A stretch of DNA of 64,000 nucleotides from Malus domestica (lineage: Eukaryota > Streptophyta > Magnoliopsida > Rosales > Rosaceae): contig NC_091673.1 of assembly GCF_042453785.1 (NCBI RefSeq), positions 8,205,001 through 8,269,000 on the forward strand. The letters are read 5' to 3'. The notes below the pieces were generated by a model. The model worked only from the letters and a program-made list of their open reading frames with translations. It was not told the DNA's origin and searched no databases. Position 1 is the first letter of the stretch. Each line of letters opens with the position of its first letter. Positions 3,297 to 54,418 of the stretch are shown here, in pieces. The position numbers and the translations under genes are program-made.

Positions 3297-3581
3297 GAGT
3301 AATAATATTCATACCATGTTTTTGTACTACATTTTCATACCATTTTAGGTGATATTTGATGTGGACAGTCACATCATTTGAATTAATTAGATTTTTAAAT
3401 TTAGTTCATTATTTAATAAACTAATAATTAAGAAAAAATAGTTAATTAAATGATAATTGTGGTATACGAAGAGTTTTTTTCCTTCATTTCCTTGGGTTTT
3501 GCAAATTTTTCAAATGATGTGGCTGTCTGCATCAGATGCTACATCAGATGATATAGAAATATGGTATGAATAACATTATTT
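3297..3581. mobile_element. MITE, MULE type (family B, copy 1)
   Basis: An AT-rich element of about 285 bp with terminal inverted repeats: left GAGTAATAATATTCATACCA, right the complement of TATGGTATGAATAACATTAT. It is flanked by the 9-bp direct repeat ATTCATTAA at 3288-3296 and 3582-3590. A 9-bp target duplication is typical of Mutator-like elements. It has no coding capacity. The same family occurs at 10491-10793 in the opposite internal orientation, sharing the segments around GATGTGG, TTAATTATTAG and GGGTTTTGCAAATTTTTCAA. Confidence 0.8.
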
Positions 3582-10490: not shown

Positions 10491-10793
10491 GAGTAATGTT
10501 ATTCGTACCATGTTTTTATACCACATTTCTATACCACCTTAGGAAAACATGGTATCTGATGTGGATAGTCATATCATTTGAAAAATTTGCAAAACCCAAG
10601 GAAAGGTAGGAGAAAGACTCCTCGTATACCACAATCATAATTTAATTAACTAGTTTTTCTTAATTATTAGTTTATTAAATCATGAACTAAATTTAAAATC
10701 TGATTAATTCAAATGATGTGGTTGTCCACGTCAAATGACACCTAAAATGGTATGAAAATGTGATACAAAAACATGCTATGAATAACATTACTC
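10491..10793. mobile_element. MITE, MULE type (family B, copy 2)
   Basis: A 303-bp element with inverted ends GAGTAATGTTATTC / GAATAACATTACTC. It is flanked by the perfect 9-bp repeat GAAACTACC at 10482-10490 and 10794-10802. It shares ends and internal segments with the element at 3297-3581. It lies about 180 bp upstream of the GCS1 start codon, directly before the promoter motifs, so it could affect that promoter. Confidence 0.88.
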
Positions 10794-27903: not shown

Positions 27904-28570
27904 CATCTTAAAAAATAACTTGTACTGTTATCTCAGGAATCCTATTTAATTATACCTCTATTAAGTAATAACCTCTTTTAAAGTTATAAAATTGATTTGA
28001 TTCCAACTTTTAACTTAATAAAAGTTACCATATATGGTTGATAACCAGTTACCCTTACCATGCACGAATCACAAAATGCCACTCAAACATATCACTTCAT
28101 CGCATGTTTTTTTCCAGTCCAAAAATTTGAGGAAGGCACATTGATTGGCGAAACTGGGTTTGACTTTAGAGTATCTACTTATTTGGTTTGAGAAATTTTC
28201 TAATGTAATTATAAATCTTATTTTTTAGGATAGTACATCTTAAAAAATAACTTTCGTACTATCATCTCAGGAATCCTATTTAATTATACCTCTATTAAGT
28301 AATAACCTCTTTTAAAGTTATAAAATTGATTTGATTCCAACTTTTAACTTAATAAAAGTTACCATATATGGTTGATAACCAGTTACTCTTACCATGCACG
28401 AATCACAAAATGCCACTCAAACATATCACTTCATCGCATGTTTTTTTCCAGTCCAAAAATTTGAGGAGGGCACATTGACTGGCGAAACTGGGTTTGACTT
28501 TAGAGTATCTACTGATTTGGTTTGAGAAATTTTCTAATGTAATTATAAATCTTATTTTTTAGGATAGTAC
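27904..28570. repeat. 332-bp tandem repeat, copies 1 and 2
   Basis: Copy 1 starts CATCTTAAAAAATAACTT at 27904 and copy 2 starts with the same phrase at 28236. The copies are nearly identical, including ATGGTTGATAACCAGTTAC, CACTCAAACATATCACTTCA and GGCGAAACTGGGTTTGACTT. A third copy is split by two transposon insertions (35432-35568 and 41878-about 42080). Origin unknown. The motif of repeated AATAACCTCTTTTAAAGTTA suggests an old transposon terminus, not a gene. Confidence 0.9.
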
Positions 28571-29458
28571 TGTAGACATCGAAATTTCGGTAAATAAATG
28601 TTGACCGATAAATCAAAGTGTCAACGCTCATGTATTACATAAATTTTACACGTAGCGTGTGACTCAACGAAAAATTGAAATGAGTTGGAAAAGTCATCAA
28701 ATAGGACACGTGTCAACACCTGGCAGAAACGACTTATTTCATCTGGGATATTATATTCAAAATTAGGCCTTGGAAAATTCTATAAATACAAGCCCATTTC
28801 ATTCATTTGGGGGAACCAATTCATATTACACCTTGAAGCTTTGAAGCTCTGAAACTCGGAAGCTCTCAAGCATCCAGGTTCCCGAAGAATCAAGAAAGCT
28901 CTCTTCGTTCTTCGTTCTTCGTCCATCGCTCTTTCAAGATCAAGCCCCAACGACCCTTTGGATCAACAATCATCCACCTTCAAGATCAAGCCCCGAAGGC
29001 CCTTGAAGAAAGTGTTCTTCGTTCATCGTCCTTCCAAGATCAAGCCCCAACGGCCCTTTGGATCAACAAACGTCGACAAATCCACACATCCAACCGTTTC
29101 TTCAAGATCAAGCCCAAAAGCCCTTGAAGATCCGTTCATCACTGTTCTTCAAGATCAAGCCCAAAAGCCCTTGGAGATCCGTTCATCACTGTTCTTCAAA
29201 GATCAAGCCCAAAAGCCCCTTTGAAGATCCGCTCAAATCCACCTTCAAGATCAAGTCCGCGGCCCTTGAAGAACGTTCATCCTTAGATCAAGCCCAACGG
29301 CCCTTTGGATCAATCACACATCCATAAATACACACCTTACGGAGATTGAATCAGAGGATCAAAATAGAGAGAGATTGTAACCCAAAATCATCAAATACAA
29401 ATATTTGTTTGTGCACGTTGTTCTTGTCTCTTTCATTCAGGAATTTTCCGTGTTCACA
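28571..29458 (+). repeat. 5' LTR of the gag-only element
   Basis: An 888-bp LTR, TGTAGACATC to TGTTCACA. A TATA-like TCTATAAATACA lies at about 28779-28790. From about 28935 it contains a run of degenerate units with core AAGATCAAGCCC followed by AACGGCCCTT or AAAGCCCTT, which give spurious open frames. Confidence 0.93.
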
Positions 29459-29480
29459 AATTGGCACGCCCAGTGGGACA
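29459..29480 (+). other. Presumed primer-binding site
   Basis: Immediately after the 5' LTR comes AATTGGCACGCCCAGTGGGA, the position where reverse transcription is primed by a host tRNA. The matching tRNA was not determined. Confidence 0.5.
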
Positions 29481-29536
29481 ATCTCTACCTCTCATCTCTT
29501 TCTCCGTTCAAGGAATCCAAGCACACCTCAAAGTCA

Positions 29537-32209
29537 ATGGCATCAAGTAAGGGACAAGCCATTCTCGCAACCACTGAGGGAAGGATCCTAAGCACTTTTG
29601 CCATAAACGGACAATCCATTGACGCCACAACCGCTCCTCAACATGCCACTTTAAAGTTGGTGCCGCTAAAAGAGCAAGGGGAGCATCAAAGGTGTGAGTC
29701 TGTCATCAACCTGACCTCACTGGGGGCACCGAAGCATGCTGGTGAGGCACACAAGATGACACCCCAAAACAGCCAACAACGTTCTTCGTCAGCATCCTGG
29801 ATGTCTAAAGGAAAGTCACGTTTATTGGTTGCACAAGTCATGACCATCGGCGTTACCTCCATCGAAGAACAACTAGCTCAAATGAATGAAGCGATCGCAA
29901 GGCTAACCCGAACTGTGGAAGAAAAAGACTTGCAAATTGCAGCACTCGTTAATCGACTAGAGGTGCAGGACGGCGATAAACCCGACCCAGAGAATGATCC
30001 ACTAAAGAGAAGAGATGACGAAGAAGATGAGCCTCAGATGGAGAAAAACGATGCGAAGCCGAAGCCAGACCAAGCAGCGGCACTCATGGGATCTCTTTCT
30101 ATCCAGCAACTGCAGGAGATGATCACCAACACCATCAAGTCACAGTACGAAGGGAGCTCACATACCTCTTTGTTCTACTCGAAGCCCTACTCCAAGAAGA
30201 TCGACGCCTTAAGGATGCCGAGGGGCTATCAACCGCCGAAGTTTATGCAATTTGACGGAAAGGGAAACCCGAAGCAACATGTCGCACATTTCGTGGAAAC
30301 CTGCAACAATGCAGGGACGGAGGGAGATTACCTCGCCAAGCAGTTTGTGCGCTCGTTAAAAGGAAACGCCTTTGAGTGGTACACGGACCTGGAGCCCGAG
30401 TCCATCAACAGCTGGGAACAGTTAGAGCGAGAATTCCTCAACCGCTTCTATAGCACCCGCCGCACTGTGAGCATGCTAGAGCTAACGAGCACAAAGCAGT
30501 GGAAGGACGAGCCAGTCATTGACTACATCAACAGATGGCGCACTCTAAGCCTCGACTGCAAAGATAGGCTCTCGGAGACCTCTTCAATTGAGATGTGCAT
30601 CCAGGGCATGCAATGGGGTTTGCAATACATTCTTCAAGGCATCAAACCACGGACCTTCGAAGAGCTAGCCACTCGCGCCCATGACATGGAGGTAAGCATC
30701 GCCCATCATGGGAAGAAGGAACCGATCGCCAACTACAAGAACGACAAAGTTCTTGAGACAAAGGTGGAAAAGGCTGCATGGAAACCCACCAAGGAAGCGA
30801 TGACGGTCAACACAGCTCCCGTCATAATCTCCACACGAGGCAAGGCGGTTCAAACCAAAGCTTTTCGTGATCAAGAGATGCGTAGACGCACTTTGAAGGA
30901 GCTTGAGGAGAAGATTTATCCATTCCCCGACTCTGATGTAGTTGCCATGCTGGATGACTTGTTGGACAAGAAGGTGATCAGTTTGCCTGAGTGCAGATGG
31001 CCGGAAGAGATGAATCGTACCGACAACCCAAGATACTGTAAATTCCACCGCTTCATCAGTCATCCAACGGAAAAGTGCTTCGTACTGAAAGATCTCATCC
31101 TGAAGCTAGCACAACAAGGGGAAATCGAGCTTGACCTCGAAGACACGGCCGCGGCACACACTACTACTATTGTGTTTGAATCATTCGATCCTGTGCATCT
31201 CCGAAGCATGCATGACCATTCCCGTCAATGTTCAAGTCATATGGCACCTCCTACACAACCATCACCGGGGGCAAGCAACCAAGATGCATCTACTGGTGAT
31301 AAGAAATGGTGGACATCGGTGACCTACAAGAAAACGAGGAAGCCAAGACCACAAGCCACAAGGCCAAAAGAGGAGCCTAAACCCGCCCCTCGAACTTCAG
31401 TATTCGAAAGGCTGAATTATTCAAAACCTAGAATTGCAGCACTTGATCGCATCAGTGGTCGAGACCAAAATTCCGTCTTCAAAAGGCTTGAGACGCCAAC
31501 ACCGCAAATATCAGTCTTTGAAAGGTTATCAAAACCCAAGAAACAAAGCGGCACAGCTAGATCTCCTCCGCAACGGTCGGCTTTGGACAGACTTGAAGAA
31601 ACTAAGAAGCCTTCTAGAAACAGGAAGACAACGCCAAAGGAAGAGAAGCTCGACAGTCTAGCAGGAAAAGACGATGTTCAAAGCTTGATTCCTTCAAGGA
31701 TGAAGCGCCAAGCAACTTTGGAAGTCGACACAAAAGGACCACTGAAGGTAAGGAGGCGCACCATCATCTACACCGGCCAATCTTCACGGCAACAAACCCA
31801 AGAGGACCGCACTAAAGAGAAGGCCCAAGAAGACAAAGAAGACGAAATCCTGGAAGAAGACGTCACTTCCGGCTCTGTCAACTCAAAATTTTCACCTCAA
31901 TCGCTGGGGGCATGCTCCAAAAACATGCCAGTTAAGCCGAGTGAAGTTGAAAGATGGACTTATGTCACTCCGAAGAAACTGCACAAGAAGCATATGTCTT
32001 CTCCACAAGTTCACCAATGGGAAAGGGGGCAAAACAGCTCCTGTTCACCTCCAGAACAATGTGAAAGTGTTGGAGATAATGAAACTTTGACACGAAGATC
32101 ATCCATCCCTATCACGATGCGTGACATCTTTCCAGAAGACTTCTTCAACTACTCAGTCAAGGCTCCTTGCTATGAAGATTGCGAGGAACGACTATCTCAG
32201 ATTGCTTGA
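29537..32209 (+). CDS. Retrotransposon Gag polyprotein (no Pol)
   Basis: A frame of 890 codons from the first ATG after the primer-binding site; the open frame extends upstream into the LTR without an ATG. A coiled-coil-like stretch (EEQLAQMNEAIARL) lies at about residue 110-140. The capsid-like Gag domain lies near residues 245-390, with KQFVRSLKGNAFEWYTDL and EREFLNRFYSTRRTV. A zinc-knuckle variant C-x2-H-x4-H-x4-C (Cys501, His504, His509, Cys514) follows. The C-terminal part is basic and repeats a SVFERL/SVFKRL/ALDRL motif. The frame is intact and stops about 2.3 kb before the 3' LTR with no pol behind it. It would form particles for element RNA by family knowledge; activity is unproven. 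Confidence 0.9.
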   Translation: MASSKGQAILATTEGRILSTFAINGQSIDATTAPQHATLKLVPLKEQGEHQRCESVINLTSLGAPKHAGEAHKMTPQNSQQRSSSASWMSKGKSRLLVAQVMTIGVTSIEEQLAQMNEAIARLTRTVEEKDLQIAALVNRLEVQDGDKPDPENDPLKRRDDEEDEPQMEKNDAKPKPDQAAALMGSLSIQQLQEMITNTIKSQYEGSSHTSLFYSKPYSKKIDALRMPRGYQPPKFMQFDGKGNPKQHVAHFVETCNNAGTEGDYLAKQFVRSLKGNAFEWYTDLEPESINSWEQLEREFLNRFYSTRRTVSMLELTSTKQWKDEPVIDYINRWRTLSLDCKDRLSETSSIEMCIQGMQWGLQYILQGIKPRTFEELATRAHDMEVSIAHHGKKEPIANYKNDKVLETKVEKAAWKPTKEAMTVNTAPVIISTRGKAVQTKAFRDQEMRRRTLKELEEKIYPFPDSDVVAMLDDLLDKKVISLPECRWPEEMNRTDNPRYCKFHRFISHPTEKCFVLKDLILKLAQQGEIELDLEDTAAAHTTTIVFESFDPVHLRSMHDHSRQCSSHMAPPTQPSPGASNQDASTGDKKWWTSVTYKKTRKPRPQATRPKEEPKPAPRTSVFERLNYSKPRIAALDRISGRDQNSVFKRLETPTPQISVFERLSKPKKQSGTARSPPQRSALDRLEETKKPSRNRKTTPKEEKLDSLAGKDDVQSLIPSRMKRQATLEVDTKGPLKVRRRTIIYTGQSSRQQTQEDRTKEKAQEDKEDEILEEDVTSGSVNSKFSPQSLGACSKNMPVKPSEVERWTYVTPKKLHKKHMSSPQVHQWERGQNSSCSPPEQCESVGDNETLTRRSSIPITMRDIFPEDFFNYSVKAPCYEDCEERLSQIA

Positions 32210-32214
32210 CGAAC

Positions 32215-32540
32215 CAATGCTCCTTGTTCGCACGAGCCTAAACTGCACGAACCAAAGCTCCTTGTCCGCACGAGCCTAAACTGTAGGACACTAACCTCCT
32301 TGTCTGTAAGAGCCTAAACTGCAAGACACACGGCTCCTCGCCTGCATGAGCTGAAACTGCAACACGGCACAAAGCTCCTTGTCCGCACGAGCCTAAACTG
32401 TAGGACACGAGGCTCCTCGCCTGCATGAGCTGAAACTGCAACACGGCACCAAATGCTCCTTGTCTGCACGAGTTGAAACTGCAAACGACACCAACACTCC
32501 TTGTCTGCACGAGTTGAAACTGCAAACGGCACCAAAAGAA
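32215..32540. repeat. Tandem repeat after gag
   Basis: About nine degenerate units of 30-40 bp with core CTCCTTGTCCGCACGAG followed by CTAAACTGCA or TGAAACTGCA. Minus-strand open frames through it are shadows of the repeat. Confidence 0.85.
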
Positions 32541-33889
32541 AATACCAAAAAAAAAAATAAATAAATATATGTATGTATTTGAACTACGTTACGACTTGAT
32601 CTCTTCTTTGGAGGGGTACGTAGGCAGCTTGAATATTCCAAAATTTCGAGTTCAGTCACATCAAAATAAAAAAAAAAATGTTTTATTAAAGAAAGTCAAT
32701 TTTATTACAAAAAAAAATAAATACATATGTTATTATGTATTTACAAAAAAAAAAAAAAAAACAACCAAAAAAAAAAAAACAAAACAAAAAAACAAAAAAA
32801 ACAAAAGAAAGGAAAAAGAAATAATATATATATATGTCATCTACTATCCAGCCAGCCTATCAGAAGGAGGTCGTCCAAACCCAAGTGGCAGTGACCAGGC
32901 CCAAGCCTATTGGCCAAATCAGGCCTCGGCCCATTTTCCAAAAGCTGCTAGTACAAGCCGAAGAGGAAGGTTCTTCGGATCCTGACCCGTATTCGTCCAT
33001 TCCAAACTCCAAACTCCGATCCGCTCTTCACTGATGAGCTCCGACGCTGCCGACTCGTCCGGTGGCGGGTGCGCTTTCACGGCCGACAAGGACAAGCAGA
33101 AGGAGAAGGCCCGAGTCTGCCGCACCTCCCTCATACTCTGGCACGCCCACCATACCGACCTCATCCTCACAAATTATCCTTGTCTTTGTAGGTAAGAACA
33201 AGGATAAAGGAAAGGACAGGGAGAACGCATGATATGAGATACTCTTGCTTTCTACCCTGGTGATATGAGATACTTCCACTCAAACTCGGGTAAGGAACCG
33301 ACTGCTTGGAACCCTTCCCTGATTGCCTACCTAGCACTGCTCTCGAGTACTCGCCTTCCACTGCTGTTGTACTTTCAAAGAAGCTGCCGCATCTGCCTGA
33401 AGAACAGATAAGGCAAGTGAAAATGATACCTTGCAGCATGTGGAGACAAGGTGCAGAAGGAACAAGCAGAGAAGAATGCGGTCTGCACGGTCAACTCAGC
33501 AGAAGGAGTCCGAACTGAGGAACTCGAGAAGCTGCCATATCTGCCTGAAGAAACAAGCAGAGAAGAATGCAGCATGCACAGTCAACTCAGCAGAAAGAGT
33601 CCGAGATGAAGAACTCGAGAAGATGTCGCATCTGCCTGAGGACAGTGAACTTGTTTTGACCCTCAAATTCTTGGGTCGACTTACTAGGCGTTGTGGGCTG
33701 CACGTGCCGATTCACCACCCTTGAATCGAATCCTTAAAGATCAAGTCACCAACTGGAAGAAGAGTTCATCAATCTTGAAGATCATACCGTTGACCAAACT
33801 GCTCAGGTGTGAATTAGAAAGATTGAACAAAGAAACAGGTTGTCACCTTTACCTCGTGCCTGCTTGTCATGTGTTCGAGTCAACCTTCA
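32541..33889. other. Non-coding internal region of the gag-only element
   Basis: Starts with A-rich low-complexity DNA (32690-32830). It is followed by higher-complexity DNA without a recognisable domain in any frame. Around 33450-33640 a segment of about 90 bp with AGAAGCTGCCATATCTGCCTGA occurs in two to three degenerate copies. No pol remnant was recognised. Confidence 0.6.
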
Positions 33890-34395
33890 AGAATCAAGCC
33901 TCAACGGCCCTTGAAGAAGCTTTCAGCCAAATTCGAAATCAAGCCTCGACGGCCCTGGAAGAAATCACAAGTCTGATTCAAGATCAAGTGTCTACCACCC
34001 TTGAATCAAAACCTAGTTCAAGAATAAGCTGTGGAAAATCAACAATTGGAGGAATCCAGAAAATCCTCCAACCCAGTTCAAGATCAAAGCTGTGGAAAGT
34101 CAACAAGCGCAACAAAATACGTGCTGATTCATCCACTACCAAAGCCAAAAATCATCTACCACATGAAGCTCCTTGTGGCCCAATTTCAACCTTCAAGATC
34201 AAGCCTCAACGATCCTTGAAGAAATTTCAAACAAAAGTTCAAGAACAAGCCTCAACGGCCCTTGAAGAAATCTCAAGCCCAATTCAAGATCAAGCCTCAA
34301 CGGCCCTTGAAGAAATCTCAAGCCCAATTCAAGATCAAGCCTCAACGGCCCTTGAAGAAATCTCCAGCCCAATTCAAGATCAAGCCTCGATGGCC
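33890..34395. repeat. 42-bp tandem array before the 3' LTR
   Basis: Units of about 42 bp with core AAGATCAAGCCTCAACGGCC then CTTGAAGAAATCTCAAGCCC. Three units are almost identical between about 34240 and 34395, with degenerate units before. The core is the same as the repeat inside the LTRs, so LTR and internal arrays share an origin. Confidence 0.9.
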
Positions 34396-34486
34396 CTTGG
34401 ATCGACATCTACAATAAGGGACTTCAAAACGCATCTCCTACACGTGACAAGCACATGTATACGACGTGCCTTGAAGTGGGGGCATT
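34396..34486 (+). other. Region with presumed polypurine tract
   Basis: Ends GAAGTGGGGGCATT directly before the 3' LTR, a position and composition expected for the plus-strand primer. Nothing else recognised. Confidence 0.5.
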
Positions 34487-35431
34487 TGTAGACATCGAAA
34501 TTTCGGTAAATAAATGTTGACCGATAAATCAAAGTGTCAACGCTCATGTATTACATAAATTTTACACGTAGCGTGTGACTCAACGAAAAATTGAAATGAG
34601 TTGGAAAAGTCATCAAATAGGACACGTGTCAACACCTGGCAGAAACGACTTATTTCATCTGGGATATTATATTCAAAATTAGGCCTTGGAAAATTCTATA
34701 AATACAAGCCCATTTCATTCATTTGGGGGAACCAATTCATATTACACCTTGAAGCTTTGAAGCTCTGAAACTCGGAAGCTCTCAAGCATCCAGGTTCCCG
34801 AAGAATCAAGAAAGCTCTCTTCGTTCTTCGTTCTTCGTCCATCGCTCTTTCAAGATCAAGCCCCGACGGCCCTTGAAGAAAGCACCATCGTTCATCATCC
34901 GTTTATCCAAGATCAAGCCCCAACGACCCTTTGGATCAACAATTATCCACCTTCAAGATCAAGCCCCGACGGCCCTTGAAGAAAGTGTTCTTCGTTCATC
35001 GTCCTTCCAAGATCAAGCCCCAACGGCCCTTTGGATCAACAAACGTCGACAAATCCACACATCCAACCGTTTCTTCAAGATCAAGCCCAAAAGCCCTTGA
35101 AGATCCGTTCATCACTGTTCTTCAAGATCAAGCCCAAAAGCCCTTGGAGATCCGTTCATCACTGTTCTTCAAAGATCAAGCCCAAAAGCCCCTTTGAAGA
35201 TCCGCTCAAATCCACCTTCAAGATCAAGTCCGCGGCCCTTGAAGAACGTTCATCCTTAGATCAAGCCCAACGGCCCTTTGGATCAATCACACATCCATAA
35301 ATACACACCTTACGGAGATTGAATCAGAGGATCAAAATAGAGAGAGATTGTAACCCAAAATCATCAAATACAAATATTTGTTTGTGCACGTTGTTCTTGT
35401 CTCTTTCGTTCAGGAATTTTCCATGTTCACA
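34487..35431 (+). repeat. 3' LTR of the gag-only element
   Basis: A 945-bp LTR, almost identical to 28571-29458. It is longer by one unit of about 57 bp (near 34863-34920, beginning CGACGGCCCTTGAAGAAAGC). About four single-base differences were counted by eye. Confidence 0.93.
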
Positions 35432-35568: not shown

Positions 35569-36752
35569 TGTCACAGCCCGTCCCGAAATTCATTTATCAG
35601 TGAGGTCAAATGATAGTTTTATCATTGGACGGGAAATTGTAGTGTGTATGTGTGACATATTGAGACTTAGAGTTTATTGTGTGGTTTTGAGATTTGTGAC
35701 CACGTGGACCACACACACACACCATACTCACTCCCTCTATCTTCCTTCCCGTGCCCTCATCTCTCTCGGACTCACACTCTCTCTCTTCTTCCTCGTATGG
35801 ACCAAGCTTAAAGTGAGCTTCCCAGTCACAAATCGAAGATTCTAAAGGCACCATTGCATTCCTCGTGCCATTTCGAGTTGGTTGGTACCCATTTCAGGTA
35901 AGGATTCATTCGAAATCTCGAGAACCCGAAACTCATTTTTCATGCACTATTCATATGGACATAAAACCTTGTGTTTCAGAAGATTTCAAGCTCACAGGGA
36001 GCTTTAGGAGGTCCTAAGGAAGCTCGGGGTAGTTCGTTGGAAAAGTTTGGACGTCAGAGGGCCGAGATCGAAGGTTTTCAAAGTTGACCGGATTATCGAG
36101 CTTTCTCAGGTAAAATCTAGTAGATTTTAAAGCTTAAAAATGGTATAACGTGATTCTACATGTTGTTAGCTTTCCAATGGTTCAAATTTCATGAAAAATG
36201 GTTGAAAAACGAGTGAGAATAGTAGGTTTAAAGTTTTACCTAGTTTCCAAGCGACCGGCGACTCGCCGGAGAAGATGACGACATATTCCGTCAGTTTGGA
36301 CGAAATATGTTGACACCGTTAGTCAGTTTTAACGGAATATTCCCTAACGGTGGTTAGGGAATCCGTCAGGTTTGGCCGCGCATGGGGGCGTGTTTCGCCG
36401 TGCCCTTAAAAATTTATGTAAAAATTTGGGGATGATCCTGAGGTTATGTAGGTCACTATAGTATATTCATATACCCATTTTGAGCAATGCATGAGAAGTT
36501 ATTAGCTAGTTTTGTCTATGTGCTTTAAAATAACGTTTTTATAGTTAATATAGGTGAGACTTATCCCGAGGACGAGCGTATCCACGGGCGACTCGGGGGT
36601 TACGACCCGTCGACATACCAGCGAGTGGGCTTTTGTTTTTAGTATATGTTTATATACTTGATATTTTCTCAGAAAAATATGTCTAAATGATAATATGCCA
36701 TACATGCCATGCATATACTATTATGTTTCGTGTGTGAATTGGTGTGTGATAA

Positions 36753-36791
<39 letters not shown>

Positions 36792-37350
36792 GTGGATATA
36801 AATGTGGTGTTGTGGAGGCACAGGTAAGTTCAGGTACGTTATGTTTGGTTATGTGAATCATCGATGATGTGATATGTGATTGAATAATGTTGAGCTCATA
36901 AAACTGCACCTAGGGTGATTGTGATTTAGCCAGAGATATGAAGTACACGCCTGTTTATTTATGTCACCTCCCACACTATATGCTCATATTGGATCCAACT
37001 TACGTGCACAGTCTTGTCGTACATACCTTATTTATGGTTCTGACTCGTAGGTGACTAGCGATTTATCGCCCAACTATTATGAGAGAGTAAAACTGAGCAT
37101 AACTATATTACACCCAATCTTGTCGTACAGACCTTTTTAGAGGTTCCGACTTCTGTGCAGTATATTGTCGTATAGGTCATGGTAGTGACTCCAGCTAGAT
37201 TGACTTTGAGCTATAAATTCAGCCGTACAGGCTACCACAGGGGTTCCGGCTAACATATCATATTCTATGAATGTATTCTTACCTGAATTGCTCACTCTGT
37301 TATATATTAGAATATGATTATGTGAAGCATGAATTGAATTGATATGAATT

Positions 37351-37694
37351 TGTTTATACCATATTTAGATCTCGTACAAATACTCGGGGGACTTAAATGT
37401 AATTATGTAATAAAGGAATGAGAAAATATGTAATAAATGATGAGCTCTTATTCTATAAAATGACTCCTCACCCTCACAATTAGGAGAGGCCATTTCTTAG
37501 GCCATGGGAAGAGTTCTCTCACCCTCAAAAGCTTTCTCCCTCACTCCCTTCACTTCTCAGAGAAATACAATAATCAGTATGGACGTAGCCCAAACATTGG
37601 GGTGAACCACGATACATCTTGTGTTATTTACATTTTTTGCAGATTCATGGTCGGATTTACGTTGTTCCAAGACCTTCGGTTTTGTGCATCAACA
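37351..37694 (+). repeat. 5' LTR of the gene-fragment-carrying element
   Basis: A 344-bp LTR starting TGTTTATACCATATTTAGAT and ending TGCATCAACA. A TATA-like TTCTATAAAATGACTC sits near 37452. It is followed directly by the primer-binding site. Confidence 0.88.
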
Positions 37695-38297
37695 TTTGGC
37701 GCCGTCTGTGGGAATCGACACGAAAAGCTATGTCGGTTCTCTTTCAATTTTTCACCTCCGCCATGAATCTACAAAACCTAAGAGCCCAAAACCTCACTTT
37801 TGGATTTTTTCCAGAAAACCCTCTATCTCTCTCTCTATGGATTTTATTTATTGGTGTTGTACTTGGTACATTTCTAAAAAAGTTGCTCACAAGCAGCAAC
37901 TATCTGATTCCCATCAAATCTACCTTCCTCCAAGGCCAGTCTCTCGAACCTACGACCAAACACACACCGCCCTTGAAGCAAATCTCAACGAGGAGAGAGT
38001 TTCTGTCTCTCTCTCTCTCTTTCTGTCTCTCTATCTCTATCTCTAGACTCTTTCGCTTTCTTTACAGAGTCTCTGACTGAGAAATTCTTGGAATTTGATT
38101 CAATTTTTCGACAACATGAGTTTGACCCAATTCGCCATGTGCTGACCAAAACAAAAAAGAAATGAAAAAAACTCCAAAAGGTTGGTCATTTTCAAGTGTA
38201 AAGACTGAAGAGCCACAGTGAAATGGTTTCCCATTCCCATATACCCCAACCTCTACCGCTGTCCACCACAAAGTTGCTCCAGTCAACTTCAATCTAG
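37695..38297. other. Internal region before the first captured fragment
   Basis: Primer-binding site TTTGGCGCCGTCTGTGGGAA at 37695-37714, then leader-like DNA with CT microsatellites (CTCTCTCTC near 37828 and 38008). A 153-codon open frame here has no recognisable domain and begins in the LTR. Confidence 0.5.
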
Positions 38298-38417
38298 AAG
38301 GTTCAGCTTTACGGTTCCGACCCGGCCATAATCAAAGCCCTGGCGAACACCAGCTTGGGTATAGTCATTGGAGCGTCGAACGGGGACATCCTGGTTCTCG
38401 CTTCCGACCCGACCTGA
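38298..38417 (+). pseudogene. Captured fragment of a GH17 beta-1,3-glucanase gene
   Basis: Forty codons reading KVQLYGSDPAIIKALANTSL, then GIVIGASNGDI and LASDPT before TGA. This matches, from memory, the conserved N-terminal stretch of plant glucan endo-1,3-beta-glucosidases (VRLYDADPAVIKALA...IGIVIGASNGDIP). It is only a piece. The active-site glutamates lie outside it and the flanks are unrelated. It lies in the same direction as the element. Confidence 0.75.
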
Positions 38418-38955
38418 TATCTCCATCTCTGACGACGCCAGCGAGATCCGACAAAACCCGACCCAATGACCCGCAAGAAGATCAAAGAGGAGAAAGCTGC
38501 AGAGCACGGGTAAGATCCAAGTTGAGGCAGAATGGTTCGCGGAGATTTCGAGGTGCTACCAGTCGGAGTCGCAGGTGGAGACGCCACAACGAAGACGATC
38601 TCTTACTACTAGACTCAGCATCAGCGGCATTTTCAGAAGCCCAAGCTTTAGTGATCTTCTGCTTACGACGATGGTGTTTCCGAGGAAGGCTCCGATCGTA
38701 AAGTTGAGTTATCGTCGCATCCGACACATAGTCCTTACTCATCTGATAATGAATGGGAACGGAAACTTACCATGTTGTTACGTGACAAGGAGAAGCAAGA
38801 TGGTGAGGGAGTTCTTCCAACATCAGTTCTGCACCAAGTCCCAAAGGTCATGTTGGGGTATATTGAGGTCCATTCCATTCCGACATTGAGGAAAAAGGGT
38901 TTGAGTAACAGCGTCCAGAGAAGAAAGAGCTTCGTCTCAATCTCTGCATAATCTC
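38418..38955. other. Captured or unknown DNA between gene fragments
   Basis: GC content is higher than in flanking transposon DNA. On the minus strand a frame at 38482-38742 reads SDATITQLYDRSLPRK, RRKQKITKAWASENAADAE and other stretches of protein-like composition. It may be a fourth captured fragment in antisense. I could not identify it. Confidence 0.35.
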
Positions 38956-39093
38956 TCTGATACTGCTCTTATTAAAATCAACACGGCCCACACAAATCCC
39001 CAGTACCGTGAAGCAGCGGATTTCATTCTCTCCGAGGCCAAGTCCCTCTCCCTTGAATCCCAGACTCTCGAGTTCGTCCTCGGTGAGCATATC
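38956..39093 (+). pseudogene. Captured fragment of an aminoacylase-1 (M20) gene
   Basis: The frame reads ALIKINTAHTNPQYREAADF then ILSEAKSLSLESQTLEFVLG. It resembles the N-terminus of plant aminoacylase-1 (INTAHPNPDY...QTLEFVPGKP, from memory). The fragment ends at CTCGGTGAGC, which looks like a splice donor, so it may have been captured with an exon edge. The metal-binding residues of the enzyme lie outside the fragment. Confidence 0.65.
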
Positions 39094-39097
39094 CATC

Positions 39098-39275
39098 GAC
39101 CTTATGTCACTCAACCTCAGTTACAACTCGTTCTCTGGTCACTTCCCCGCTGGAATTTTCAAACCTCACCAACCTTAAAACATTAGACATCAGCAGAAAC
39201 AACTCCTTCGGCCACTTCCCCGTCGGAGTCTCAGCCTTTCAAAACCTCATCGTTCTTGACACATTCAGCAACAAG
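39098..39275 (+). pseudogene. Captured fragment of an LRR receptor kinase gene, frameshifted
   Basis: Two LRR units: DLMSLNLSYNSFSGHFPAGI, then after a one-base insertion LTNLKTLDISRNNSFGHFPV and GVSAFQNLIVLDTFSN. The frame breaks at about 39160 within TTCAAACCTC. The repeat pattern LxxLDISxNxxxGxFP is that of plant extracellular LRR kinases. The parent gene is not in this window; the LRR-RLK at 5658 has different repeats. Confidence 0.8.
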
Positions 39276-40019
39276 AAAAGCAGAAAGCAACTGTCACTTT
39301 GGCTGCAATTATTACCACGGAAATATTAATGTCCAACCAGTTGTCACTTTAGAGAAAAGCAAAAGAAAGCAAGTGGGTGGTATCAAAGCTGTCCTGTTAC
39401 GTTTTATAGGAGAACATGTAGGAAATGGAAAAGAGAAAGAAAAGCAAAAGAAGAAAGCAGAAAGAAAAACAATCAAGTGAGTTGCGGCATAAAAGCAAAA
39501 TACAGAGACGCAGTGGAGAGAAAAGAAGAAAAGCAAAAGATCTTCGTATTATTATGATTCCTTCTGTCTGCCAGATGAAGAGACAGAGATAGTGCAGCAG
39601 AAAAACACAAACAAAAGCAAGGAATAAACACTCCACCAGAGTGATGTGGTTTACTTTCCTTATTTTTGAATGATGTAATTTATTTTTCGTATCTTTCGGA
39701 GTTATCTGTATAAACCCCATCAGAGGGTAATTAATTAAAAAAAAAAAGGCAAGCCCAAAATAATGGGCTGGAATGTTATGTGGAGGGCAAAGGCCCATAT
39801 GCCCAAAAGAACTAGGCCCTATGGCCCCAAAATTATTCGGTAGCATACCGCTATTATCACCAACCATGCGATCAAAAGTATGCACAATACTCTAAATTTA
39901 TTCGGCAATCTACCGCTATTACCACCAACCAGGTGATTAAAAGTACGCCCAGTACTCCAAATTTATTTAGCAGCCTGCTGCTATTACCACCAACCAGGTG
40001 ATCAAAAGTATGCCCAGTA
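39276..40019. other. Internal region, no coding signal
   Basis: A-rich DNA with AAAGCAAAAGAAAGC-type runs. From 39830 there are three degenerate units containing TATTCGG(T/C)A, CCGCTATTACCACCAACCA and AAAGTACGCCCAGTACTCC. Confidence 0.5.
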
Positions 40020-40250
40020 CTTCAAAATTATACATGAGCACTACTCATGTCAATTATACATAAACATTCATGAACATCATTCATGTCAATCATACATAAA
40101 CATTCATGAACATCACTCATATCAATCATACATAAACATTCATGAGAATCACTCATGTCAACATTCATGAGCATCATTCGTGACAACATCCATGAGCATC
40201 ACTCATGTCAATTAACATAAACATTCATGAGCATCACTCATGTCAATCAG
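40020..40250. repeat. Tandem array of about 26-38 bp units
   Basis: Seven or more degenerate units with core CATTCATGAGCATCACTCAT followed by GTCAAT. Directly repeated, without unique spacers. Confidence 0.85.
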
Positions 40251-40410
40251 CTTCAAAAGCTTCATTTACAAAAGCTCTAGCTTTAAAAACTTCATTTATA
40301 GAGCTTTAGCTTCAAAAGCTTCATTTACAAAAGCTCTAGCATCAAAAACTTCATTTACAGAGCTCTAGCTTTAAAGCTTCACTTGCAAAGCTTCACCTAT
40401 AAAGCTTCAG
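40251..40410. repeat. Tandem array with AAGCTTCATTTACA core
   Basis: Four or more degenerate units with CTTCATTTA(C/T)A followed by AGAGCTCTAGC or AAAGCTCTAGC. Confidence 0.8.
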
Positions 40411-40527
40411 TGCAAGGTATACAAATACCGTCTCCGAACAACCGCCACTTCGGCCAATACATAGATTCAATTTGAAGTCTCCAGCCAACAGACTCTATTG
40501 ACCGAAGACTTGGGGGACTACATTATG

Positions 40528-40830
40528 CACCATATATTGGGCCTCAACTGGGCCTCATGAAAAATACAAAATAATTGGGGGACTTAACCTATCGCTTATG
40601 TATTGAGGAGCGATCCCTTATTTTATAAAAGGGACTCCATCACTTTCATTATAAAGCACTCATGAAAAATACTTGGGGGGACTCTAGCCCATCACCTATG
40701 TATTGAAGAGCGAACCCTTATTCTATAAAAGGGACTCCCTCACCATCATTAAAGAGCATCAACTCTAGCCCATCATTCATGTATCGAGAAGCGAGCCCTT
40801 ATTCTATAAAAGGGACTTCCTCACATTCAA
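40528..40830 (+). repeat. Degenerate LTR-like segments inside the element
   Basis: Begins TGCACCATATATTGGGCC, like the LTR start. It is preceded (40452-40523) by a copy of the sequence that precedes the true 3' LTR (CTTCGGCC...GACTTGGGGGACTAC). It then holds three copies of a module with TTATTCTATAAAAGGGACT, which matches the LTR promoter region. It looks like partial LTR duplications. Confidence 0.6.
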
Positions 40831-41041
40831 AGCCACAAGCCGAGCCAACCAAGGCAACATAAGCCACGAGCCGAGCAGCTTCGCAGCATGTGCTACTTCT
40901 AGTTGAGCATCATTTCAGATTGAGCACCGCCTCATATCGAACATCAGTTCAAGACAACATCTAGTTACTTCGGCCCACACATGGATTGAATTTCAAGTCT
41001 CCAGCTAAAAGACTCTTTTGACTGAAGACTTGGAAGACTAC

Positions 41042-41400
41042 TGCTTATATCATATTTAGGGCCTCCGTATTTAGATCTCGTACAAATACTCGGGAGACTT
41101 AAATGTAATTATGTAATAAAGGAATGGGCAAATATGTAATAAGTGATGATCTCTTATTCTATAAAAGGACTCATCACCCTCACAATTAGGAGAGGCCATT
41201 TCTTAGGCCATGGGAAGAGTTCTCTCACCCTCAGAAGCTCTCTCCCTCACTCCCCTCACTTCTCAGAGAAATACAATAATCAGTGTGGACGTAGCCCAAA
41301 TATTAGGGTGAACCACAATACATCTTGTGTTATTTACATTTTTTGCAGATTCATGGTCGGATTTACGTTATTTCAAGACCTCTGGTTTTGTGCATCAATA
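41042..41400 (+). repeat. 3' LTR of the gene-fragment-carrying element
   Basis: A 359-bp copy of 37351-37694, starting TGCTTATATCATATTTAGGG and ending TGCATCAATA. It has a 16-bp partial duplication near its start and about 20 substitutions by eye. Confidence 0.88.
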
Positions 41401-41872
41401 GAATTCATATATATTTATATATTATGTATATGTTTATATTCTGATTCTGGGAAAAATTATACATGTTTTACAATAAGGGGTTAGATATGTTAATAAAGAA
41501 AACGATTTTGTAAAACATTTGTTTTTGCCCACTCACGTTTTCTATTTTACGCCCCTGCAGGTTTTAAGTAAGCTTGTTGTTAGTGGCTTGAGGACGTCGG
41601 CGGTTCTGACTTATCTAAATAATGGAAGGACATTCCTGGTACTGTATAATTAGTACTTGTCTTCCTGGACTGCACCTAAACTTAATATGCTCTGATTATG
41701 AGTGTTTACTATTGTAACTAACTCCTATCTCTTCATGTTTAGTAGTGAACTCTACTATTTCGGTTTTTAATTATTCGTATAATTCTTATCTTTATTGCTT
41801 CCGCACTGTACACATGGTTATGTCACTCCCACATGACGGCCAACATGCCTTGATCTCGATCGGGGTATGTCA

Positions 41873-52043: not shown

Positions 52044-54418
<2,375 letters not shown>

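Follow-up and report, generated by a model that had tools for sequence, protein, structure and literature searches.

The window analyzed here is a stretch of 64,000 nucleotides of the Malus domestica genome (contig NC_091673.1, here C13:8205001-8269000), and at 37351..41400 it holds a small long terminal repeat (LTR) retroelement with pieces of several host genes between its LTRs. An earlier note, written from the letters of the sequence, had proposed that this element lacks gag and pol, that it carries pieces of three unrelated genes in its own direction, and that it might represent a family worth naming. Searches of its own genome (651 Mb, 19 contigs) show that the element belongs to a single LTR family whose two ends are fixed and whose middle, the cargo, differs in most of the copies examined. 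The parts of the element, in window positions, are as follows.

37346..37350, no strand: 5' target-site duplication (TSD), GAATT
37351..37694, plus strand: 5' LTR, TG...CA, 344 bp
37695..37945, plus strand: sequence resembling a primer-binding site (PBS), TGGCGCCGTCTGTGGGAA, at 37697, and fixed leader
37945..38139, plus strand: captured first exon of a host gene on contig C12
38246..38410, plus strand: captured GH17 (beta-1,3-glucanase family) piece
38403..38799, plus strand: cargo segment common to the sister loci L033, L035 and L036
38956..39093, plus strand: captured N-terminal piece of aminoacylase-1
39094..39273, plus strand: captured leucine-rich repeat (LRR) receptor piece, two repeats and one frameshift
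39276..39600, plus strand: purine-rich pre-tail, whose extent varies among family members
39601..41041, plus strand: fixed 3' tail that has tandem repeats and three additional TATA modules, and ACTTGG, resembling a polypurine tract (PPT), at 41028
41042..41400, plus strand: 3' LTR, 359 bp, ends TA
41401..41405, no strand: 3' TSD, GAATT

The element has the paired LTRs, 5-bp TSD, PBS and PPT of an LTR retrotransposon, although the PPT-like sequence before the 3' LTR, ACTTGGAAGAC, is degenerate. GAATT stands on both sides, the perfect duplication that had been claimed; five bases taken at two random window positions coincide with a frequency of 0.0016. Of 344 aligned LTR bases 21 differ, 17 by transition and 4 by transversion, and the 5' LTR is 15 bp short near its beginning. 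The Kimura two-parameter distance (K2P) between the LTRs is 0.064, an age of 2.5-4.2 million years if the rate is set at 1.3e-8 or 7.7e-9 and of 12.9 million years if it is set at 2.5e-9. As transitions make up 17 of the 21 differences, decay driven by methylation may make this age too high.

The proposed absence of gag and pol is borne out in the 21 frames scanned, so that the element does not qualify as an autonomous member. The best Pfam match was at E 0.05 in 18 frames of 37695-38260, 38405-38960 and 39270-39800, and at E 0.072 in the tail at 39795-41041, which was covered in its three sense frames. NCBIfam models, run on six further frames, gave a best E of 0.09. A 98-residue open frame had no relative in the genome and viral collections or in the PDB. 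The PBS pattern had no match in the viral and genome contig collections, nor the U3 pattern in the viral collection, and a literature search with the PBS string returned no papers. We note that the tail holds, at 40585-40839, three TATA-containing U3-like modules (e.g., TTATTCTATAAAAGGGACT) that resemble the LTR promoter region.

Parent genes were sought in the own genome with 37740-39590 as the query, and the best 40 of 546 candidates were scored. Host loci with no other match of at least 60 bp to the element were found for the GH17 piece, the LRR piece and the C12 first exon, and all three lie in the sense of the element, in agreement with the proposal that a non-autonomous LTR element had captured unrelated host genes in sense. 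Within the bounds first drawn for it, the GH17 piece is weak (Pfam E 0.0049). Its homology extends upstream across an in-frame TAG, and with an X placed at this stop it matches PF00332 at E 1.9e-5, with a score of 24.9 bits that lies under the curated cut-off of 28.2. The parent, C15:1921092-1921256, is 90.3% identical to 38246-38410 and sits in a 265-residue open frame that continues, by eye, as a GH17 protein. The aminoacylase-1 piece was likewise upheld, by a match to NCBIfam TIGR01880 (E 2.7e-7, profile positions 20-56 of 401) that scores far under the cut-off of this full-length model; it matched nothing in Pfam or the PDB. No parent for it appeared among the best 40 of 546 candidates scored, so the parent genes that the earlier note expected were recovered for GH17 and LRR and not for aminoacylase.

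The third piece had been described as part of an LRR kinase. The LRR assignment holds: two repeats are separated by a frameshift, they align with the PDB protein TDR over chain residues 76-134, and the parent at C15:11628490-11628668 is 92.2% identical to 39094-39273. No kinase domain lies in the piece itself. Many LRR proteins match the piece, so that its assignment to the receptors comes from the parent gene, where the match falls in an open frame of 518 residues, LRR-type by eye, that runs off the 2.1 kb fetched. The GH17, aminoacylase and LRR pieces are all N-terminal parts of their proteins. With a stop and a frameshift breaking the frames, they encode no intact chimeric protein. The stretches outside the pieces, with nothing under E 0.05 in 18 frames, serve as a rough negative control.

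All three of these pieces are real, and their number had been understated, since 37945-38139 and 38403-38799 are cargo as well. The former is 94.4% identical to C12:31269518-31269712 and consists, by eye, of the 5' untranslated region and the first eight codons of a host gene; the match ends exactly at the splice donor of the parent, ATG|GTATGT. The latter recurs at 78-90% identity in L033, L035 and L036, all of which hold family tail sequence, L036 with LTR and leader in addition. It opens with what we take, by eye, to be an ATP-citrate-lyase-like start, and at its junction with the GH17 piece there are, also by eye, 5 bp of microhomology (GACCC). L033 has 98 bp within this segment that the window copy lacks. 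A gap at 38489 might be taken for a lost intron, a reading that was rejected: family tail or LTR sequence is present in the loci that match there, and the gap is thus a deletion that the window copy has undergone. A further locus, L030, has the leader and cargo in common with the window up to 38171 and then again over 38325-38481. Among the best 40 of 546 candidates, stretches with several adjoining pieces recur in loci that also hold the family tail or LTR, and the same arrangement outside an LTR pair was not seen. The interpretation given in the earlier note is thus partly supported.

Relatives of the element were collected with 37700-41040 as the query against the own genome. The best 40 of 5227 candidates, a figure that is not a count of copies, were scored, one of them the window itself, and gave 88 matches. 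With the window excluded, 86 of 87 matches lie at query positions of at least 1654 (window 39353 on) and one at 2-77, and the tail at 39601..41041 is the high-copy part of the family. Nineteen loci, which were thus picked by tail similarity, were fetched at 9-10 kb each. The 5' LTR, the primer-site leader and the tail are present in the same order in 18 of the 19, so the suggestion of a family worth naming was well founded, and matches to both the 5' and the 3' LTR are present in 16. The cargo comparison excludes the exception, L026, which has neither a 5' LTR nor a leader in the part fetched. The leader is common to the 18 up to about 37758-37798, and in L044-L047 it extends to 37945.

Between these ends the middle is 1.2-2.1 kb long in 17 relatives. 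It is 224 bp in L017 (6881-7104), which is perhaps close to a cargo-free form. When the 19 cargoes (18 relatives and the window) are compared, broad sharing is limited to L011 and L013, at 90% over 1.18 kb, and the remaining matches of at least 60 bp fall within roughly 500 bp upstream of the tail. The upstream limit of tail homology in 37 loci clusters at 39276-39287 (7 loci), 39592-39612 (15) and 39660-39673 (6), with 9 elsewhere; the 37 mix two query sets, one with a query that contained 39276-39590, and the clusters may be biased accordingly. The last 300 bp of the window cargo are 67% purine vs 47% in the rest, and the corresponding values in the relatives other than L017 are 53-68% vs 48-53%.

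The cargoes of the relatives carry pieces of other host genes. Cargo stretches of at least 60 residues were scanned against Pfam at E<=1e-3 (L017 yielded no such stretch), and 130 sense stretches gave 27 families, 25 of them shown, vs 6 families from 113 antisense stretches. The sense cargo includes a serpin (L024), a PTR2 transporter (L027), an S10 carboxypeptidase (L021), a HEAT-type protein (L022), an H+-pyrophosphatase in L020 whose sequence is shared by L019, DUF642 (L012), a FAD-binding protein (L018), GRAM (L014) and EamA (L025); a Trihelix piece (L012) and an LRR piece (L014) were placed by eye from translations. BRO1 (L010), an Exo84-type protein (L016) and GST (L025) are antisense. 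Several of these matches, EamA, GRAM and BRO1 among them, lie under the Pfam curated cut-off, and the SufE, GDA1_CD39, Ist1, RPW8 and EDR4-like matches were counted without being assigned to an element. Among 20 stretches scanned singly, 5 had no family at E 0.01, including the longest (365 residues, L015).

LTR K2P in the 14 relatives that could be dated runs from 0.000 to 0.107, and their TSDs are exact over 5 bp in 8, the remaining 6 having one mismatch among the 5 bases. The dating does not include L015 and L027, whose 3' LTR match is incomplete, L018 and L020, which gave no 3' LTR, or L026. The youngest, L025 (6303-8342), has identical LTRs, the TSD GTTAC, and GST antisense together with EamA sense, which suggests that it transposed very recently. 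Two comparisons bear on the order of capture. L029 and the window share the LRR piece and the tail and diverge upstream of 39094, where L029 follows the LRR parent and the window has the aminoacylase piece. Most simply read, the LRR piece became joined to the tail before the other. In L019 and L020 the H+-pyrophosphatase piece stands beside the tail, and the two have no cargo in common upstream of it. Judged from these alignments, tail-proximal cargo that is shared despite differing upstream cargo suggests stepwise capture.

Taken with the structure of the element, the parents of three pieces, the family and its differing cargoes, the recent activity of one copy and the tail-proximal sharing, this suggested to us that the element belongs to a non-autonomous LTR family with fixed ends and an exchangeable middle that gains cargo by template switching onto host mRNAs, a reading that we hold to be quite probable. 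The window element would be one copy of a high-copy family in which the 5' end (LTR, PBS and leader) and the 3' end (purine-rich pre-tail, tail and LTR) are fixed and enclose the exchangeable middle. Its RNA would be reverse transcribed, probably by the enzymes of another element, and during minus-strand synthesis the enzyme may occasionally leave the tail or the adjoining cargo, copy one or more packaged host mRNAs and return to the leader. Switching would begin near the purine-rich pre-tail and end in the leader, each event would swap or extend the cargo, and the new chimera could integrate and move again. We infer this RNA route, with its template switches, its order of events and its supply of proteins by another element.

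We favor this reading because 18 of 19 relatives share their ends while their cargo mostly differs, because the host loci of three pieces are all sense and a splice donor marks the end of the C12 match, and because sense families outnumber antisense ones and the GACCC junction shows microhomology. The tail-side sharing of L029 with the window and of L019 with L020, and the range of LTR K2P with TSDs that are exact or 4/5, argue in the same direction. Several points weigh against it. The antisense host-gene matches in the relatives number four (GST, BRO1, Exo84-like and EDR4-like), and a simple minus-strand switch onto mRNA gives none. The sense excess is modest, at 14 vs 4 host genes (p 0.03), and p becomes 0.056 when it is set against the share of stretches scanned; for these counts the 25 families shown were grouped by hand, with 11 HEAT-type models as one and LRR_1/LRR_8 as one, and adding GRAM would raise the sense count to 15. 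At exon borders the support for the RNA route is the one piece that ends at a splice donor, microhomology was seen at one junction only, the search gave no aminoacylase parent, and no autonomous partner element was found.

Part of the same evidence would suit an exchange at the DNA level, in which host DNA is gained by double-strand-break repair or ectopic recombination without reverse transcription. Cargo in both orientations speaks for such a route. We nevertheless regard it as unlikely, given the C12 piece that ends at a splice donor, the sense excess of the cargo genes and the TSDs of the dated relatives, a pattern that fits integration with the cargo already inside. It is very unlikely, in our view, that a DNA transposon (a Pack-MULE or Helitron) carried the gene pieces into an ordinary LTR element. 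Helitrons typically carry several genes, and part of the relatives' cargo is antisense. However, the element shows neither the terminal inverted repeats (TIRs) and 9-bp TSD of a Pack-MULE nor the TC...CTRR and hairpin of a Helitron: in 37690-39900 the best TIR candidate with a 9-bp duplication agrees at 7 of 14 bases and does not convince (a weak test), the Helitron-like ends of this stretch number 2 vs 0.75 in shuffles (also a weak test, made on sequence alone), and a 12-nt perfect inverted repeat at 38239/38852 has, by eye, no matching target duplication. The same leader and tail moreover bound mostly different cargo in 18 of 19 relatives, so that a separate insertion at the same place would be needed each time. 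Read-through transduction, the addition of flanking genes by transcripts that run past the element, can be given next to no credence. Bs1 is listed under transduction in a review (PMC13317346), but the cargo here is internal, between leader and tail and not beyond an LTR, and the parents lie on C15 and C12 and the element on C13, although an earlier copy could have lain elsewhere.

Gene capture by LTR elements, even of several genes, is already known from Bs1, GmaRetroS15 and pepper. In maize, the LTR element Bs1 combines segments from three host genes, including a beta-1,3-glucanase (PMC13317346), and the window element likewise holds several unrelated host pieces with a beta-1,3-glucanase among them; Bs1 has been described as a transcribed and translated chimeric gene (PMC13317346), whereas here the frames are broken and the copies carry many cargoes. 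GmaRetroS15 of soybean, a terminal-repeat retrotransposon in miniature (TRIM), is also small and non-autonomous, with three host-gene pieces and 5-bp TSDs (PMC4717578). The cargo-bearing soybean TRIMs are 1,172-1,449 bp long and comprise 30 elements in seven subfamilies (PMC4717578); unlike that group, the element here measures 4 kb and comes from a single family whose examined copies mostly have different cargo. Retroduplication in pepper and other angiosperms took place mostly inside elements without gag/pol, and two or three genes per element were seen there too (PMC5664825); that account concerns mainly NLR (nucleotide-binding leucine-rich repeat) genes, whereas here diverse short pieces vary between family copies. 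Counts per genome include 425 maize elements with gene fragments, none of which, under the conditions applied there, held two or more standard nuclear genes (PMC2774510), and 672 captured genes in rice and 1343 in sorghum (PMC3726574). TRIMs are defined by a very short internal region and very small size, and large retrotransposon derivatives (LARDs) by a large conserved non-coding internal region, usually >4 kb (PMC4668562); with an internal region of 3347 bp and a middle that is not conserved, the element is neither.

Pack-MULEs and Helitrons carry varying cargo between fixed ends. The family described here resembles Pack-MULEs and gene-bearing Helitrons in its host gene cargo (PMC4717578, PMC2774510), but those are DNA transposons and this is an LTR retroelement. 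One may go further and see in it an RNA-based counterpart of Pack-MULEs, one LTR family that exchanges mRNA-derived cargo between a priming leader and a purine-rich landing zone and so makes ever-new gene mosaics. This broader reading, which cites the 5227 first-look candidates for the 3' half and the one copy with identical LTRs, we offer tentatively and with slightly more doubt than belief. What is new is a single family with fixed ends whose cargo differs in most copies examined; we found no description of such a family in the open-licence literature, and the excerpt of PMC13359793 mentions none. The published surveys cited here count captured genes per genome, and this family offers many captures in one setting, where capture order, junction microhomology, strand bias and intron loss become measurable and template switching can be tested directly. 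For gene annotation, such copies can be mistaken for gene pieces.

The surroundings of the element consist in part of other repeats. The element is inserted in a solo LTR-like sequence, Gypsy-like by eye, at 35571-41872 (TGTCACAGCCCG...GTATGTCA), which is itself inserted in the third unit of a 334-bp repeat (27904-28570) with a 5-bp duplication that has, by eye, one mismatch. A second LTR element at about 28571-35427 has the TSD AGTAC and a Retrotrans_gag open frame at 29381-32206; pol was not recognized in the two open frames scanned, and the element has TTGGCACGCCCAGTGGGAC in its PBS region, unlike the gene-carrying element. Farther away, three tandem copies of the small nucleolar RNA snoR74 lie on a 182-bp repeat at 53145-53652 on the minus strand, and two inverted repeat arms of 145 and 105 nt (3297-3537 and 10554-10793, 88-90% complementary, ∼7 kb apart) flank an LRR kinase gene.

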